Below are positions 35,361 to 41,783 of a stretch of 64,000 bases of DNA, piece after piece (position 1 is the stretch's first letter; every line of letters starts with the position of its first letter). A program made the translations under genes and the position numbers. The notes below the pieces were generated by a model. That model was not told where the DNA came from and searched no databases. It saw only the letters and a program-made list of their open reading frames with translations. The stretch is from Rhizobium halophilum (lineage in GTDB: Bacteria; Pseudomonadota; Alphaproteobacteria; Rhizobiales; Rhizobiaceae), in NCBI RefSeq assembly GCF_021648825.1, contig NZ_JAKJHS010000003.1:124001-188000 (forward strand), read 5' to 3'.

Positions 35361-36770
35361 TTACTGCCATTCACGGATGTCGACGAAATGTCCGGCCACC
35401 GCCGCCGCTGCCGCCATGGCGGGCGAGACGAGGTGCGTCCGGCCCTTGTAGCCCTGGCGCCCTTCGAAGTTTCGGTTCGAGGTCGAGGCGCAACGCTCGC
35501 CGGGCTTCAGCCGGTCGTCGTTCATCGCCAGGCACATGGAGCAGCCCGGCTCGCGCCATTCGAAGCCTGCCTCCTTGAAGATCTTGTCGAGACCTTCCGC
35601 CTCTGCCTGTTCCTTCACGAGACCCGAGCCCGGCACGATCATCGCCGACACGGTGGGCGCGACGGTGCGGCCCTCGACCACCTTGGCGGCAGCCCGCAGA
35701 TCCTCGATGCGGCCGTTGGTGCAGGAGCCGATGAAGACGCGGTCGACGGCGATGTCGGTGATCTTGGTGCCCGGCTTCAGGCCCATGTAGTCGAGCGCGC
35801 GCCACTTGGAGGTCCGCTTCGTTTCGTCCTTGATGTCGTCCGGATTCGGCACCACGCCCTGCACCGAGATCACGTCTTCGGGAGAAGAGCCCCAGGAAAC
35901 GATCGGCGGCAGGTTGGCGGCATCGAGTACGACCACCTTGTCGAAATGCGCACCTTCATCCGTGTGCAGCGTCTTCCAGTAGTCCAGCGCCATGTCCCAG
36001 GCAGCACCCTTCGGCGCGCGCGGCTTGTCCTTGATATAGGCGAAGGTGGTCTCGTCGGGCGCAATCAGGCCGGCGCGGGCGCCGCCTTCGATCGTCATGT
36101 TGCAGATCGTCATGCGACCTTCCATCGAGAGCGAACGGATCGCCTCGCCGGCAAACTCGATGACATGGCCGGTGCCGCCGGCGGTGCCGATTTCGCCGAT
36201 GATCGCAAGGATGATGTCCTTGGCGGTGACGCCGTCCGGAAGCTTTCCGTCGACGCGCACCAGCATGTTTTTCGCCTTCTTCTGCACCAGCGTCTGGGTC
36301 GCCAGGACATGCTCGACCTCGGACGTGCCGATGCCGTGCGCCAGCGCTCCGAAAGCGCCGTGGGTCGAGGTGTGGCTATCGCCGCAGACGATGGTCATGC
36401 CCGGCAGGGTAAAGCCCTGCTCCGGCCCGACGATATGGACGATGCCTTGGCGCTTGTCCTTTTCGGAATAGTATTCGACGCCGAAGTCGTGGGCGTTCTG
36501 TGCCAGCGCCTCGACCTGGATGCGGCTTTCCTCGTTCTTGATGCCGATATGACGGTCGGGCGTCGTCGGCACGTTGTGGTCGACCACGGCCAGCGTCTTC
36601 TGTGGTGCGCGAACCTTGCGGCCGGCCAGGCGCAGGCCCTCGAAGGCCTGCGGGCTCGTCACCTCATGCACGAGGTGACGGTCGATGTAGAGAAGACAGG
36701 TGCCGGTCTCGTCGGTGGAGACGACGTGGTCGTCCCAGATCTTGTCGTACAGGGTGCGGGGTGCGCTCAT
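35361..36770 (-). CDS. leuC: 3-isopropylmalate dehydratase large subunit
   Basis: A 469-residue aconitase-family LeuC, which with LeuD isomerises 2- to 3-isopropylmalate in leucine synthesis. It has the opening [13 protein letters not shown], the 4Fe-4S ligands in [13 protein letters not shown] and GCSMCLAMN, and [14 protein letters not shown]. The start at 36770 ([10 protein letters not shown]) matches the family; 3 codons upstream are in frame. leuD is not in this window. The 5' region contains a possible leaderless small ORF. Confidence 0.96.
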
Positions 36771-36843
36771 GGCTGCCATCCATTGGAACTGTCGAGAAAG
36801 GAAGATTGCCGGCTTGTATCGCGGCCGGTGCGATTGGATCGGC

Positions 36844-37020: not shown

Positions 37021-37491
37021 TCAGCCGCGAACGCGGGCGGCGAGCAGATGGTCCAGCGACAGTCGCCCGGGGCCCCGAGCGATGATGATCAGCAGGCAGG
37101 CGGCCCATGTCCCGTGCGTTGGCCAGGCGCCGGGGTAGACGAAGATCTGGATCACCAGCGTCATGGCGAGCAGCCCGAGTGCGGCAAGCCGGCTGCCGAG
37201 GCCAAACACCAGCAGGAGGGGAAACAGATGCTCCGCCAGCGCCGCCAGATGGGCGGCAATCACGGGGCTGATCAGCGGCAGTGCGTATTCGTGCTCGAAC
37301 AGGTAGATGGCGTTTTCCGAAACCTGCCAGCCGTCCAGCTTCGTTTGTCCTGACTGCCAGAAAACGGCGGCAATGGAGAGGCGTGCGACGACGGCGATCA
37401 GGTCGTGGGGGATGCGCTCCAGCAACATGACACCCTCCTGCAGGCGGCGCGATAGGCTGTGATCTGCGGAAACAATGGCGGGCGTGCTCAT
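37021..37491 (-). CDS. DoxX family membrane protein of the bufferin operon
   Basis: A 156-residue DoxX-like protein with four predicted transmembrane helices. It has the family core [19 protein letters not shown] and [18 protein letters not shown]. DoxX proteins are small membrane proteins tied to redox or thiol stress. The ATG overlaps the stop of the DUF2063 gene (ATGA), so it is the last gene of the bufferin operon. DoxX genes are a frequent companion of such operons. Confidence 0.88.
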
Positions 37492-38261
37492 GGCTGGTCT
37501 CCCGGTTGGGTTTGGATGGTTGAGAAGGCGCCGCCGCTCAAGGCACAGGCGAGAGTGGCGGTGAGGTCAAAATCAGGATGCGCCGCTGCACCGGCCTCGG
37601 CTGCGTCTGCCAAGGGCCCGCCAGCCGCCAATGCGTCGAGGAAGACAGCGCCGGCTGGCGGCAAGCGCAGGACCTCCACCGTCAGATGCGGGCGGATCAC
37701 CAGCGCATCCTCCGGCGTCCAGTCGCTGATCGGTGCCACAGGCGCCTCGCCGGCATTCATCGCCCAGATGGTGACGACGGGAAAGGCGGAGCGGAGAACC
37801 GTCGCGGAGGGGTGGAGAGTAAAACGCACCGCCGCCAGATCATCCGGTGCCACTGCCGCAAGCCGTGCGGGATCAAGCGGCGCGACATCGGCTGCATGAT
37901 AGGCACGGCCACGGCCGATTTCCAGCCGCATCACATCGGCCAGATAGGGAACGGACTGGGCGGGCGGAAAGGCCGCGGCGAAATCGGGAAAATCGTCGCC
38001 GTAGAGAAAGAGCAGCGGCGAGCGCGGCGGGTGTTCGCAGATGAAGATGTCCGCCATCGCCGCGAAGAAGTCCTCCCCGACGATCATTTCTGCAGCCGGA
38101 AAGCGGCTGGCAAGTGCGCGGCGCAGACTGACCATGACGTTGTTGCGGTAGACATCGTAGCGCACCTTCGGCTGTCGACAGTTCCACGATGTCAGGCCCT
38201 CCGGCAGCGCACTCTCCGGCTTCATCAGGCCCGCCGCAAATCTCTGCTGCATCGTCGACAT
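37488..38261 (-). CDS. bufC: BufC/HvfC-like DUF2063 protein (MNIO partner)
   Basis: A 257-residue DUF2063 (putative DNA-binding domain) protein. The N-terminal part has the typical [42 protein letters not shown] and [10 protein letters not shown]. In bufferin and methanobactin-like pathways the partner of the MNIO enzyme presents the precursor peptide to it. The gene starts 9 bp after the DUF692 enzyme stop. The assignment rests on the domain plus context. Confidence 0.88.
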
Positions 38262-38270
38262 CGCCGCCTC

Positions 38271-39119
38271 CTATGCTGCAAGTGCCGAGCGCTGGAGAAT
38301 AGCTTGCGCCGCCTGGGCTTCCGCCCGCAGCACCGGCCAGTCCGGCACGTCGTTGTCCCATTCGATCAGCGTCGCCACCGGCCCGATGCGCCGAACCACG
38401 TCGGCATAAAGCGCCCAGACAGGATCGCGCACCGGCGTATCGTGCGAGTCGATCAGCAGCGTTGCGCCAAGGTCATCTTCCGTCTCCGAATGGCCGCCGA
38501 GGTGGATCTCGCGCACGTGTAGGACGGGAAAGCGTGCGAGGTAGCTGGCCGGGTCGGTGTTGTGGTTCGTGGAGGCGACGAAGACGTTGTTGACGTCGAG
38601 CAGAAGGCCGCAGCCGCTGCGCTTCACCACCTCGTCGAGGAAGTCAGTCTCTTCGTAGGTGCTTTCCTCAAAGAGCAGATAGGTTGCCGGATTCTCCAGC
38701 AGCATCTGTCTTCCCAGCGCCGTCTGCACCTCATCGATATGCCGGCACACCTGCGCAAGCGTCTCTTCCGTGTAGGGGAGGGGCAGCAGGTCGTTCAGGA
38801 AGGTCGTGTCATGGGTGGACCAGGCGAGATGCTCCGAAAAGCTCTCCGGCTGGTAGCGATCACAGACCTGCTTCAGCCGCTGCAGGTGATCCTGGTTAAG
38901 CGGCTGTATGGAACCGATCGAAAGGCCAACGCCATGGACGGACAGGACATAGTCTTCCCTGAGCCGGCTAAGCTGAGCATGAGGCGGCCCGCCGGCACCC
39001 ATGTAGTTTTCGGCGTGAACCTCAAAGAACCCAACTGGCTGCCGCTCTTGATCGATGCTGGCGAAATGTTCGGGCTTGAAACCGACGCCCGCCTGGGCGG
39101 GGAGCTGTGAAGGGCGCAT
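38271..39119 (-). CDS. bufB: MNIO-family (DUF692) bufferin-modifying enzyme
   Basis: A 282-residue DUF692 TIM-barrel enzyme, family of multinuclear non-haem iron oxidases (MbnB relatives). Likely iron ligands are conserved: EVHAEN (about 33-38), His62 in SVHGVG, SEHLAW (95-100), LLENP (Glu142), LLLDVNN (Asp175, Asn177), EIHLGGH (His206, His210) and DSHDTPV (Asp224, His226). Relatives turn cysteines of a DUF2282 peptide into thiooxazole copper ligands. The frame runs far upstream to 39674, but the family start is the ATG at 39119. Confidence 0.93.
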
Positions 39120-39178
39120 GTCTCTCTCCTGAGAAAATCGGCGCCGCAACCCTTGCGACGCCGAGCTGCACATCGACC

Positions 39179-39463
39179 TCAGGCCGGTGCCGGTCCGGCT
39201 TCCAGCATGCCGTGGCCGTTCGGCGTCATCATCGCTTCGCAGGTGCCGGCGGGCACGAGCTTCCAGGCGTTCTGCTGGTAATCGACGGTGGAGGTTCCGG
39301 CGCAGGTGGTGCCGGGGCCGGCGGCGCAATCGTTCTGGCCCTTCAGCGCGACGCCGTAGCATTTTTCCTTGCCATCCTGCTGGGCAAGGGCCGGCGATGC
39401 GATGGCGGCAAGAGCCGAGGTGACGGACGCCGCGACGGCAAGCGAAATGATGCTGGTCTTCAT
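39179..39463 (-). CDS. bufA: Bufferin-type RiPP precursor (DUF2282)
   Basis: A 94-residue DUF2282 precursor. It has a Sec signal peptide (1-28, ending SPALAQ) and a mature part with four cysteines (35, 46, 54, 75) in [26 protein letters not shown] and PAGTCEAM, the hallmark pattern of bufferins. These exported peptides bind copper after modification by the MNIO enzyme. The start at 39463 follows AGGGAG; 13 codons upstream are open but lack a site. First gene of the operon, with an ECF-type promoter. Confidence 0.92.
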
Positions 39464-39507
39464 GTTCGATCTCCCTGGTAAGCAAACCCCGTTGGCTTGC
39501 ATGGAGA

Positions 39508-39535
39508 CCTACGCCGGGCGACGGAGCGGCGTTAC
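39508..39535 (-). promoter_or_regulatory. ECF-sigma-type promoter of the bufferin operon
   Basis: On the minus strand GTAACG (39530-39535), exactly 16 bp, CGTAGG (39508-39513). The same boxes and spacing occur before the divergent ECF sigma gene. The predicted start lies about 38 nt before the bufA ATG. GTAAC-type -35 boxes are typical of ECF factors, including Caulobacter SigF. Confidence 0.75.
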
Positions 39536-39658
39536 AGCGCGGAGCACGATTTTTTTCTGAGCCGGCCGGACTTGTCGGTGAAGGGCAGCGGCGAGCACAT
39601 GGCATTGTTGTGGTAGAAACTCTCCGGGGGCGCTTGCGTAAAAAAGATGAAGGCAGGC

Positions 39659-39686
39659 GTAACGATCGACCCATCCTCTGCGTAGG
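39659..39686 (+). promoter_or_regulatory. ECF-sigma-type promoter of the sigma factor gene (autoregulation)
   Basis: GTAACG (39659-39664), 16 bp, CGTAGG (39681-39686), identical in boxes and spacing to the promoter of the divergent bufferin operon. The ATG at 39697 is only 10 nt after the -10, so the mRNA would be nearly leaderless, or a later start (ATG at 39736) is used. Confidence 0.7.
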
Positions 39687-39696
39687 GCTCTACAGA

Positions 39697-40248
39697 ATGA
39701 GTGATCTGGCGCGCGAAGAGCAATGGTCCGCATGGATGCGGGCGGCGATCGGCGGTGATGCGCAGGCGTATCACCGCTTTCTGACGTCGGTCACGCCCCA
39801 TCTGCGGGTCATGGCCCGCCGGCGTTGTGCCCAGTTCGGTGCGCCTGCGAGTGAAGCGGAGGACGTCGTGCAGGAAGTCTTGCTGTCGATCCACCTGAAG
39901 CGCGGCACCTGGGATCCGTCCCGCCCGATTGCACCATGGATATCCATCATGATCCGCAACAAACTGATCGACAGCCTGCGCCGGCGCGGGCGCCATGTGG
40001 ATGTGCCGCTTGAGGATGTCATGGCGGTGCTTGAGATCGATGATCAGAGCCAGACGCAGGAGCGCCTCGATGTCGACCGGATCCTCAAGACGCTGAAGGA
40101 GCCGCAGCGGACCATCGTGCAGGCAATCTCCGTGGAGGGCAGCAGCGTGCGCGAAACGGCAGGACGCGTGAACATGACCGAGGGAGCGGTGCGCGTCGCG
40201 CTGCATCGCGCTCTCAAGGCGCTAAGCCTCACCTATCGGAGCCAATGA
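39697..40248 (+). CDS. ECF RNA polymerase sigma factor, SigF-like
   Basis: A 183-residue ECF sigma factor. Region 2 (about 25-90) contains AEDVVQEVLLSIHLKRGTWDP and the -10-reading PWISIMIRNKLIDSLRRRGR (core IRNKLID). Region 4 (about 120-175) contains LKEPQRTIVQAISVEG and the helix-turn-helix SVRETAGRVNMTEGAVRVALHR (core GAVRVALHR). The DUF1109 gene follows one base later, matching the Caulobacter sigF-nrsF pair that responds to metal stress. A start at 39736 is possible. Regulation of the divergent bufferin operon is inferred from the shared promoter motif. Confidence 0.93.
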   Translation: MSDLAREEQWSAWMRAAIGGDAQAYHRFLTSVTPHLRVMARRRCAQFGAPASEAEDVVQEVLLSIHLKRGTWDPSRPIAPWISIMIRNKLIDSLRRRGRHVDVPLEDVMAVLEIDDQSQTQERLDVDRILKTLKEPQRTIVQAISVEGSSVRETAGRVNMTEGAVRVALHRALKALSLTYRSQ

Positions 40249-40249
40249 C

Positions 40250-40885
40250 GTGAAGACAGACGAACTCATCAACATGCTGTCCGAGGATTCCACCGTCCGC
40301 TTCCGGCTCGGCCATGCACTGACGCTGGCCTTCGTCGCCGCCATCCTGCTGGCGGGTACGCTGTTCTTTGCCCTGATGGGCTTTCGGCCGGACATCGAGA
40401 CGGCCCTCACCAGCCTGCGCTTTGTGTTCAAGCTGCTGGTGACGATCGTTTTCTTCCTGGTGGCAGCAAACCTGATGGTTCGCATCGGCCGTCCGGGCGT
40501 CCGGGTTCTTCCGTGGGAGCTGGCGCTGCTGCTGGTGCCTGTCCTGATGACCGTCTCCGTGCTGGCGGAACTTGCGGTGCTCCCGGCAGGAGACTGGGCG
40601 GCGCAGATGATCGGGCACAACGCACACGAATGCCTATCGCTGATCCCGCTTCTGTCGACGGGACCGCTGGCGGCCTTCATCCTCGCACTTCGCCAAAGTG
40701 CCCCGGAAAACCCCGGCCGCGCCGGCGCAGTGGCAGGACTTGCGGCGGGCGGCATCGCCGCAGCCTTTTACGCCTCCAACTGCACGGACGACAGCCCGCT
40801 CTTTGTGGCCCTCTGGTACACGGTGGCAATCGGTATTGTTACCGGTGCCGGCTATCTTGCCGGCCGTCGCTGGCTCGCCTGGTAG
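40250..40885 (+). CDS. NrsF-type DUF1109 membrane anti-sigma factor
   Basis: A 211-residue DUF1109 protein with six predicted transmembrane helices. Two cysteines, C128 (HNAHECLSLIP) and C178 (YASNCTDDSP), lie 50 residues apart. That matches the two conserved cysteines needed for metal-stress release of SigF by NrsF in Caulobacter. It begins with GTG one base after the sigma stop, so synthesis is coupled. It should hold the sigma factor at the membrane until the thiols react with metal or oxidant. Confidence 0.9.
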   Translation: MKTDELINMLSEDSTVRFRLGHALTLAFVAAILLAGTLFFALMGFRPDIETALTSLRFVFKLLVTIVFFLVAANLMVRIGRPGVRVLPWELALLLVPVLMTVSVLAELAVLPAGDWAAQMIGHNAHECLSLIPLLSTGPLAAFILALRQSAPENPGRAGAVAGLAAGGIAAAFYASNCTDDSPLFVALWYTVAIGIVTGAGYLAGRRWLAW

Positions 40886-40893
40886 GTCAACCA

Positions 40894-40945
40894 GCCGCTT
40901 GAGAAGCGGCAACAAAAAAGGCGGCTCGAGAGCCGCCCTTTTCGT
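40894..40945. terminator. Bidirectional terminator between nrsF-like gene and rplS
   Basis: Two hairpins. GCCGCTT-GAG-AAGCGGC (40894-40910) comes first, then GGCGGCT-CGAG-AGCCGCC (40920-40937) with AAAAAA on its left and CTTTT on its right. The second works in both directions and is strongest for rplS (six T on the minus strand). Confidence 0.85.
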
Positions 40946-40961: not shown

Positions 40962-41495
40962 TTATTCTGCCGAGCCCTCAGCAGCCTTTGCTTCTTCTGC
41001 GGCCTTTGCCTCGGCGGCGTCAGCTGCTGCCTTCTCGGCAGCAAGCGCCTGAGCTGCTGCGACCTTCTCAGCCTCGAGACGCGCCTTTTCCTCGGCGATC
41101 GCGGCGCGCTCTGCTTCGTTCAGCTTGCGTGCGCGGGTGCCGGTGTTCTCGACAATACGAGCCGACTTACCGCGACGGTCGCGAAGGTAGTAAAGCTTTG
41201 CACGACGAACCTTACCACGGCGAACCACTTCGACGCTCTCGACGAGCGGGGAGTAGACAGGGAATACGCGCTCGACGCCTTCGCCGTAGGAGATCTTGCG
41301 AACCGTGAAGCTCTCGTTGATCCCGCCGCCGGAACGTGCGATGCAGACGCCTTCGTATGCCTGGACGCGGGTCCGGGCGCCTTCACGGACGCGAACGTTG
41401 ACGCGAACGGTGTCGCCGGCTTCGAACTCGGGGAGCTTGCGCTGGGCTTCGATCTTGGCGGCCTGTTCGGCTTCCAACTGCTGAATGATGTTCAT
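40962..41495 (-). CDS. rplS: 50S ribosomal protein L19 with long Ala/Glu/Lys tail
   Basis: A 177-residue L19. The first roughly 115 residues are standard ([59 protein letters not shown]). The last roughly 55 form an Ala/Glu/Lys-rich, probably helical tail ([20 protein letters not shown]) absent from E. coli L19. The ATG at 41495 is used; the TTG two codons before is a shadow. In most relatives rplS follows trmD; here a transporter gene separates them. Confidence 0.95.
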
Positions 41496-41783
41496 GGTCA
41501 AACCTCTATATTCTTCTGAAACAGCCAGAGCGCTCGTGTCTGTCCTTCGGTCACGCCTTTAGGCCATGCCTCTGGAGTCTGACCCTTCGGGCCAAGAGCG
41601 GGTTCGCCATTCTTTGTTGCTGGTCGACGGGGATCTCCCCATGTCCGGGTGCGCCAATACACGAAAGAAACTGCTTTGTCATCCCGTCCCGCCCTATTTT
41701 CTAGCGTACCGGAGTGCAACCGACCGTCCTTGTCGACCGTGTGCCATCCCGCTATGTGCACTGCGTCGTCACGGAGGAAGTCA

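Follow-up and report, generated by a model that had tools for sequence, protein, structure and literature searches.

The closest described relative of the locus analyzed here is sigF-nrsF//CC3254-CC3257 of Caulobacter crescentus/vibrioides, which responds to Cu, Cr, and Cd (PMC3511200, PMC8224329) and in which a DUF2282-DUF692-DUF2063-DoxX operon stands beside a sigma-DUF1109 pair (PMC3511200). We analyzed a 64,000-nucleotide stretch of the Rhizobium halophilum genome (the window; contig NZ_JAKJHS010000003.1, positions 124,001 to 188,000), which carries the same six genes at positions 37021 to 40885, i.e., the operon bufABC-doxX and, divergent from it, the genes of an extracytoplasmic function (ECF) sigma factor of the ECF16 type and of the membrane anti-sigma factor NrsF (formerly DUF1109). 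Copper induces the Caulobacter sigF regulon, and a sigF::Tn5 mutant is copper sensitive (PMC8224329); the NrsF substitutions C131S and C181S raise sigF-dependent expression, and SigF is cytoplasmic upon chromate exposure (PMC3511200). The two NrsF cysteines (Cys) lie 50 residues apart in both systems (131/181 in Caulobacter; 128/178 in the window), and both have a GTAAC-type -35 element, while the -10 element is CGAA in Caulobacter and CGTA in the window (PMC3511200). The Caulobacter regulon also contains a second buf operon and msrPQ (PMC3511200, PMC8224329), whereas the genome of the window has one bufA and one MNIO gene.

The rhizobial form of the system is rpoE7-ecfR7//SMb20527-SMb20530 of Sinorhizobium meliloti, an ECF16 module with motifs predicted before both units (PMC6180224). 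That module is missing from some S. meliloti strains (PMC6180224), while the window module has leuC and rplS as its neighbors. Bradyrhizobium EcfF/OsrA and Brucella BcrS/AbcS likewise combine an ECF16 sigma factor with a two-Cys DUF1109/NrsF anti-sigma factor (PMC3420878, PMC8315932), and GTAAC-type promoters also serve BcrS (PMC8315932); these two systems differ from the window locus in their oxidant signals, in their methionine-sulfoxide repair outputs, and in having no bufferin in the consulted parts of the papers (PMC3420878, PMC8315932). On the output side, the captophorins (i.e., bufferins, oxazolin, fontiphorin, and gonophorin) are copper-associated peptides whose precursor Cys become 5-thiooxazoles through an MNIO enzyme and a DUF2063 partner (PMC13097082); the window BufA is a putative substrate of such chemistry. 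The bufferin Buf1 chelates Cu via thiooxazoles, with its two central Cys modified and the first and last joined in a disulfide, and it binds both Cu(I) and Cu(II); bufferins sequester copper in the periplasm, Buf1 clusters are described as featuring sigma and NrsF genes, and protection from oxidative or sulfur stress has been suggested for DoxX (PMC12452194). An earlier interpretation made from the letters of the window (the sequence-only reading) overstated the novelty of the linkage, which is already published for Caulobacter and Sinorhizobium; the window holds a well-supported further example rather than a new system.

In our reading of the locus, a divergent ECF16 sigma/NrsF pair that regulates its own expression controls a Buf1-type bufferin operon and responds to copper through thiols; we put the probability of this reading at roughly 0.72. 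In the resting state, the sigma factor would be held by NrsF, a membrane protein whose two Cys would lie near its periplasmic face. When metal, most likely copper, is in excess in the envelope, it would bind or oxidize the two NrsF thiols and free the sigma factor, which would then act at two near-identical outward-facing promoters to drive bufABC-doxX and its own operon. BufB and BufC would convert the two central Cys of BufA to thiooxazoles before Sec export (by analogy with Buf1, C46 and C54, with a C35-C75 disulfide), and the exported peptide would hold copper in the periplasm. Sigma release, the inducer, the modification of BufA, and its copper binding are here modeled on close relatives.

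Gene content of the bufferin locus

The identities of the six genes are established by family searches of the window proteins, in which all six products score above the Pfam cut-offs. The minus strand carries, in the order of the operon, bufA (39179..39463; a Buf1-type bufferin precursor [DUF2282] of 94 amino acids [aa]; PF10048, E = 7e-26), bufB (38271..39119; an MNIO enzyme [DUF692] and bufferin maturase of 282 aa; PF05114, E = 2.1e-107), bufC (37488..38261; a DUF2063 partner protein of 257 aa; PF09836, E = 1.2e-23), and doxX (37021..37491; a DoxX-family membrane protein of 156 aa; PF07681, E = 1.8e-17). The plus strand carries the divergent sigma gene (39697..40248; sigF/rpoE7-like, 183 aa; Sigma70_r2 and r4_2, E = 2e-11) and nrsF (40250..40885; 211 aa; PF06532, E = 5.6e-50). 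The sequence-only reading had described just this arrangement, including the 4-bp overlap between bufC and doxX (37488-37491); the remaining spacings are 9 bp between bufB and bufC, 59 bp between bufA and bufB, and 1 bp between the sigma gene and nrsF. It had also given BufA a signal peptide and four Cys, which agrees with our count of exactly four (residues 35, 46, 54, and 75) and with an N terminus that is signal-peptide-like as judged by eye. NrsF has exactly two Cys (128 and 178). The reading frame listed for bufB (38271-39674) is over-extended relative to the gene.

At the level of narrower families, BufB scores 388.4 bits against NCBIfam MNIO_BufB (cut-off, 310), and the sigma factor scores 268.6 bits against NF009165 (cut-off, 198). 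NrsF falls below NF042994 (AntiSigF_NrsF, a narrow equivalog; 78.1 bits versus a cut-off of 300), and the protein is therefore named as a member of the NrsF family (by Pfam) rather than as the AntiSigF_NrsF equivalog. BufA, DoxX, and BufC fall below the cut-offs of NF050166 BufA2 (23.6 versus 60 bits), NF050144 HvfX (54.3 versus 80 bits), and NF050145 HvfC (44.2 versus 142 bits), respectively, so that the locus is not of the BufA2 or Hvf type. The family assignments support the classification of bufABC-doxX as a putative Buf1-type bufferin cluster. A sequence search among solved structures returned 3bww, 8hci, and MbnB as relatives of BufB and no credible relative of BufC (one chance-level match; E = 0.033), and a profile search of solved chains gave no structural relative of NrsF.

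Paired promoters in the divergent gap

The 233-bp gap between the two units (39464-39696) contains two outward-facing copies of (C/T)GTAAC-N17-CGTA, one before each unit: TGTAAC-N17-CGTA ahead of bufABC-doxX (39510..39536, minus strand) and CGTAAC-N17-CGTA ahead of sigF-nrsF (39658..39684, plus strand), the latter being the predicted autoregulatory promoter. The exact motif has only these two matches in the window, where 0.02 would be expected, and none of 100 shuffles contained two. The published ECF16 consensus is (T/C)GTAAC-N17-CGAA (PMC8315932); both gap sites fit it in the -35 element and the spacing and carry CGTA as the -10 element, a form also present at related loci. Since the -10 element of the sigma gene's own promoter ends at 39684, the most likely translation start is the ATG at 39697 rather than the GTG at 39610; judged from the same spacing, this start would leave the sigma mRNA a leader of only a few bases.

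The pairing is conserved. The sigma factor was found at E values of ≤1e-60 in 15 of 57 genomes searched (its own included), and three close relatives of the same genus with the locus (G366, G009, and G345) have sigma identities of 96, 93, and 89%, respectively. In an alignment of the gap from these three genomes and the window, short coding ends included, both motifs are kept in all four, while only 35% of the columns are identical, the DNA between the motifs having diverged. In two further relatives (G017 and G006), the genes form a single co-directional operon, bufABC-doxX-sigF-nrsF, with the motif before bufA; the motif also precedes bufA at 6 of 10 additional MNIO loci (see below). The paired promoters are thus established by sequence and conservation, and the proposal of the sequence-only reading that the operon is wired to the sigma pair is backed to that extent: the bufA operon and the sigma gene probably share one ECF16-type motif, as these comparisons support.

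We extended the comparison to 119 NrsF reading frames (that of the window plus 21 from relatives, 59 from a sample of the class, and 38 from named genomes). A search of 30 genomes found NrsF in 17, and a search of 289 genomes sampled across the class found it in 60 (57 above the cut-off), the own genome being included in both counts; a weak, under-cut-off match among the relatives (L027) and four under-cut-off matches in the class sample were covered without wide flanks. The named set was collected by sigma similarity to the window and is not a random sample; its 80 loci yielded the 38 NrsF reading frames, and loci without one were left out. Where a sigma gene adjoins nrsF (109 loci), the motif (N16-17; -10, CG[AT][AC]) is about 52-fold denser near the sigma start (i.e., within a 360-bp zone around and upstream of it, on both strands) than elsewhere, with 107 matches in 78,396 bases versus 76 in the other 2.9 Mb of the loci, in a pooled set that includes the loci used to learn the motif. 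Within about 4.5 kb of the 119 nrsF genes, we found buf genes at at least 42 loci, msrP-like genes at at least 13 (some at just 33 to 38% identity), and alpha/beta-hydrolase genes at at least 3, these counts being lower bounds owing to contig ends and the limits of tblastn; 61 loci had none of these outputs nearby, some of them being truncated by contig ends. Among the 26 buf-linked loci that have an adjacent sigma gene and an NrsF with Cys at position 178, the forward motif is present in 19, the reverse motif in 19, and the two together in 16.

A separate observation concerns the buf-linked loci with His at this position (e.g., L102, L104, L105, and L110), of which none of 11 has the forward motif and 7 of 11 have the reverse motif. 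This pattern hints that the sigma self-promoter, and with it autoregulation, may have been lost there.

The thiol pair of NrsF

The column of C128 is Cys in all 119 NrsF proteins, in two alignments that agree for every row. At the column of C178, Cys occurs in 86 proteins, His in 28, Glu in 4, and Gln in 1. The 33 proteins without C178 have a Cys elsewhere, at the position of residue 109 in 26 and at that of residue 131 in 7, where it forms a CxxC together with C128; a Cys also occurs at the 109 position in 2 of the 86 proteins that have C178, and at the 131 position in none of them. Every NrsF examined (119 of 119) thus has a Cys pair. The 28 proteins with His at the second position had been taken as a case that excludes a dithiol mechanism; this interpretation was rejected once re-alignment revealed a Cys elsewhere in each, and the presence of a second Cys at another position in every protein lacking C178 favors the opposite, i.e., a working thiol pair. 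The most economical interpretation is that the NrsF family must retain two thiols, and we favor a functional pair in the window protein as well. The sequence-only reading had proposed thiol sensing by the two anti-sigma Cys; the 119-protein comparison favors the pair itself, which may act by disulfide formation or by metal binding.

We built trees from 109 of the 119 rows, ten near-identical Mesorhizobium proteins being left out (L134-L139, L141, L143, L144, and L147). The nearest named rows to the window NrsF are from Ensifer and Rhizobium, and His at position 178 marks one clade. In a quick tree built without the Cys columns, the partner position changes at least four times overall; well-supported branches alone force fewer changes, so that the number of moves of the partner Cys is unsure. 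There is about an even chance that the family senses through a mobile dithiol, in which C128 is invariant and its partner has moved among positions 178, 109, and 131 more than once, forming a metal- or redox-reactive site with a clade-dependent third ligand. The cited NrsF papers describe two conserved Cys (PMC3511200, PMC3420878, PMC8315932), and a limited search of the literature on the family found no mention of a relocation of the second one; the compensatory pattern may be new. It names concrete residues for mutation, and a mobile dithiol, if true, would make it possible to study the tuning of a single anti-sigma fold toward copper or toward oxidants.

A simple hydropathy scan of the window NrsF finds five membrane segments (24-42, 59-77, 93-111, 129-147, and 184-202), which place C128 directly before one segment and C178 six residues before another. 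The published Caulobacter NrsF model has six segments and periplasmic Cys (PMC3511200), while C129 of Bradyrhizobium OsrA was placed in the membrane (PMC3420878). Because the scan finds five segments, not six, the probable periplasmic location of the window Cys rests on the Caulobacter model.

Inducing signal and reach of the switch

Several observations weigh against a copper-responsive switch wired to the bufferin operon. Neither H2O2 nor CdCl2 nor K2CrO4 induced rpoE7 of Sinorhizobium or its target, copper not being named in the consulted part of the paper (PMC6180224), and characterized ECF16 relatives answer oxidants, namely, H2O2 and HOCl (PMC3420878, PMC8315932). As to the promoters, the CGTA variant of the -10 element was fixed only after the sites had been inspected, the published CGAA form has no match at this locus, and with one mismatch allowed the window still yields just the two sites while 1.46 would be expected. 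Across the 4.35-Mb genome, searched with N17 spacing rather than N16, the CGTA form has 7 matches versus 13 in the reversed control, and the CGAA form has 6 versus 22. In one relative (G366; L212, positions 1000-1296), bufA is interrupted by an in-frame stop, and a deletion extends from its end into bufB, while sigF, nrsF, and both promoters remain in place; either the output is dispensable there or the sigF-nrsF pair has another role, although the damage may be decay or an assembly error. Finally, we chose 17 genomes in which sigF-nrsF had not been seen linked to buf, and found MNIO matches in 11 and none in 6. Of the 15 matches, the 10 that came with loci were examined: 4 lack the motif and 6 have it upstream of bufA. 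Four of these six (L202, L203, L205, and L207) turned out to have a sigma or NrsF gene beside buf after all, and the other two (L201 and L206) end right after doxX, so that control of distant buf operons by an unlinked sigF-nrsF pair receives weak support.

The genome-wide counts bear also on the extent of the regulon. The motif is not enriched over the reversed control, 2 of the 13 genomic sites being those of this gap. Most of the other 11 exact N17 matches were judged by eye to overlap long mechanical reading frames, and none lies near the three Oxidored_molyb genes of the genome. A wider regulon in the own genome, considered as a candidate, was unsupported on these grounds. The description of the module as self-contained in the sequence-only reading holds for this genome, where bufA, bufB, and nrsF are each the sole match and no convincing further sites were found; it does not hold as a generality, because 61 of the 119 NrsF loci are without the tested outputs and 6 of the 17 genomes are without an MNIO match. 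The window would thus present the copper-peptide circuit of Caulobacter, reduced to a minimum, in a rhizobium-like genome, with a single switch, a single precursor, and no additional convincing targets; it would lend itself well to tests of how NrsF reads metal.

The strongest competitor to copper as the signal is a switch that senses oxidants (peroxide, hypochlorite, or sulfur species) through the NrsF thiols, with the bufferin and DoxX forming one redox-envelope arm and metal acting indirectly. This explanation draws on Bradyrhizobium EcfF/OsrA, which answers H2O2 and needs the matching Cys (PMC3420878), on Brucella BcrS, which answers HOCl (PMC8315932), and on other NrsF pairs of the genus, which adjoin msrPQ-like genes. 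We nonetheless regard it as unlikely, since agents generating reactive oxygen species did not induce the Caulobacter sigF genes (PMC3511200). The residues beside the second Cys also differ between outputs, with C-x-[DN]DSP at 24 buf-linked and no msr-linked loci and C-x-EN at 8 msr-linked and no buf-linked loci, a contrast that is only suggestive because it follows clades and 18 of 42 buf-linked NrsF proteins are without C-x-[DN]DSP. For the same reasons, these residues were rejected as a general rule for reporting output.

Less probable again is that the peptide or the switch serves another soft metal (gold, silver, cadmium, or chromate) more than copper, an explanation that partly overlaps the copper reading. 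The Cupriavidus gig/dax cluster is induced by Au, Ag, and Cu (cited in PMC8224329), and the Caulobacter sigF genes respond to Cr and Cd (PMC3511200). However, the Caulobacter sigF mutant is sensitive to Cu and not to Cr or Cd (PMC3511200, PMC8224329), and Buf1 is described as a binder of the two copper ions (PMC12452194). That the two transcription units are chance neighbors without co-regulation would accord with the many sigF-nrsF pairs that lack a linked buf (the 61 of 119 loci above, some of them cut by contig ends) and is very improbable given a matched promoter pair that arose in none of the 100 shuffles, is kept in all four aligned genomes, and recurs in 16 of the 26 buf-linked loci with a C178-type NrsF and an adjacent sigma gene.

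The surroundings of the module add several minor features. It is flanked by leuC (35361-36779) and rplS (40962-41501), which also flank it in the relative G009 (L041), so that the insertion site is common to at least two genomes. A terminator-like hairpin follows nrsF (40920..40937, plus strand; consensus scan only). Another, with 12 pairs followed by TTTTCT, lies between bufA and bufB (39138..39164, minus strand); its region folds with a z score of -1.67 (13 of 200 shuffles were as good), and it recurs in 3 of 42 buf loci (those of the window, G009, and L205), where 0.1 would be expected from shuffles. This hairpin could favor the precursor by lowering bufBC-doxX relative to bufA, but it is weak and lineage limited.

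Other loci vary the arrangement. At L203, two tandem bufA genes precede bufB, with an ECF16-type motif ahead of the first and a divergent sigma gene. At L046 (G016), two distinct nrsF genes lie in tandem downstream of a single sigma gene, which suggests that one sigma factor may be under dual anti-sigma control. A third output type is represented by L047, L048, and L049, where an alpha/beta-hydrolase-like gene is divergent from sigF-nrsF and an ECF16-type motif precedes the sigma gene in all three.

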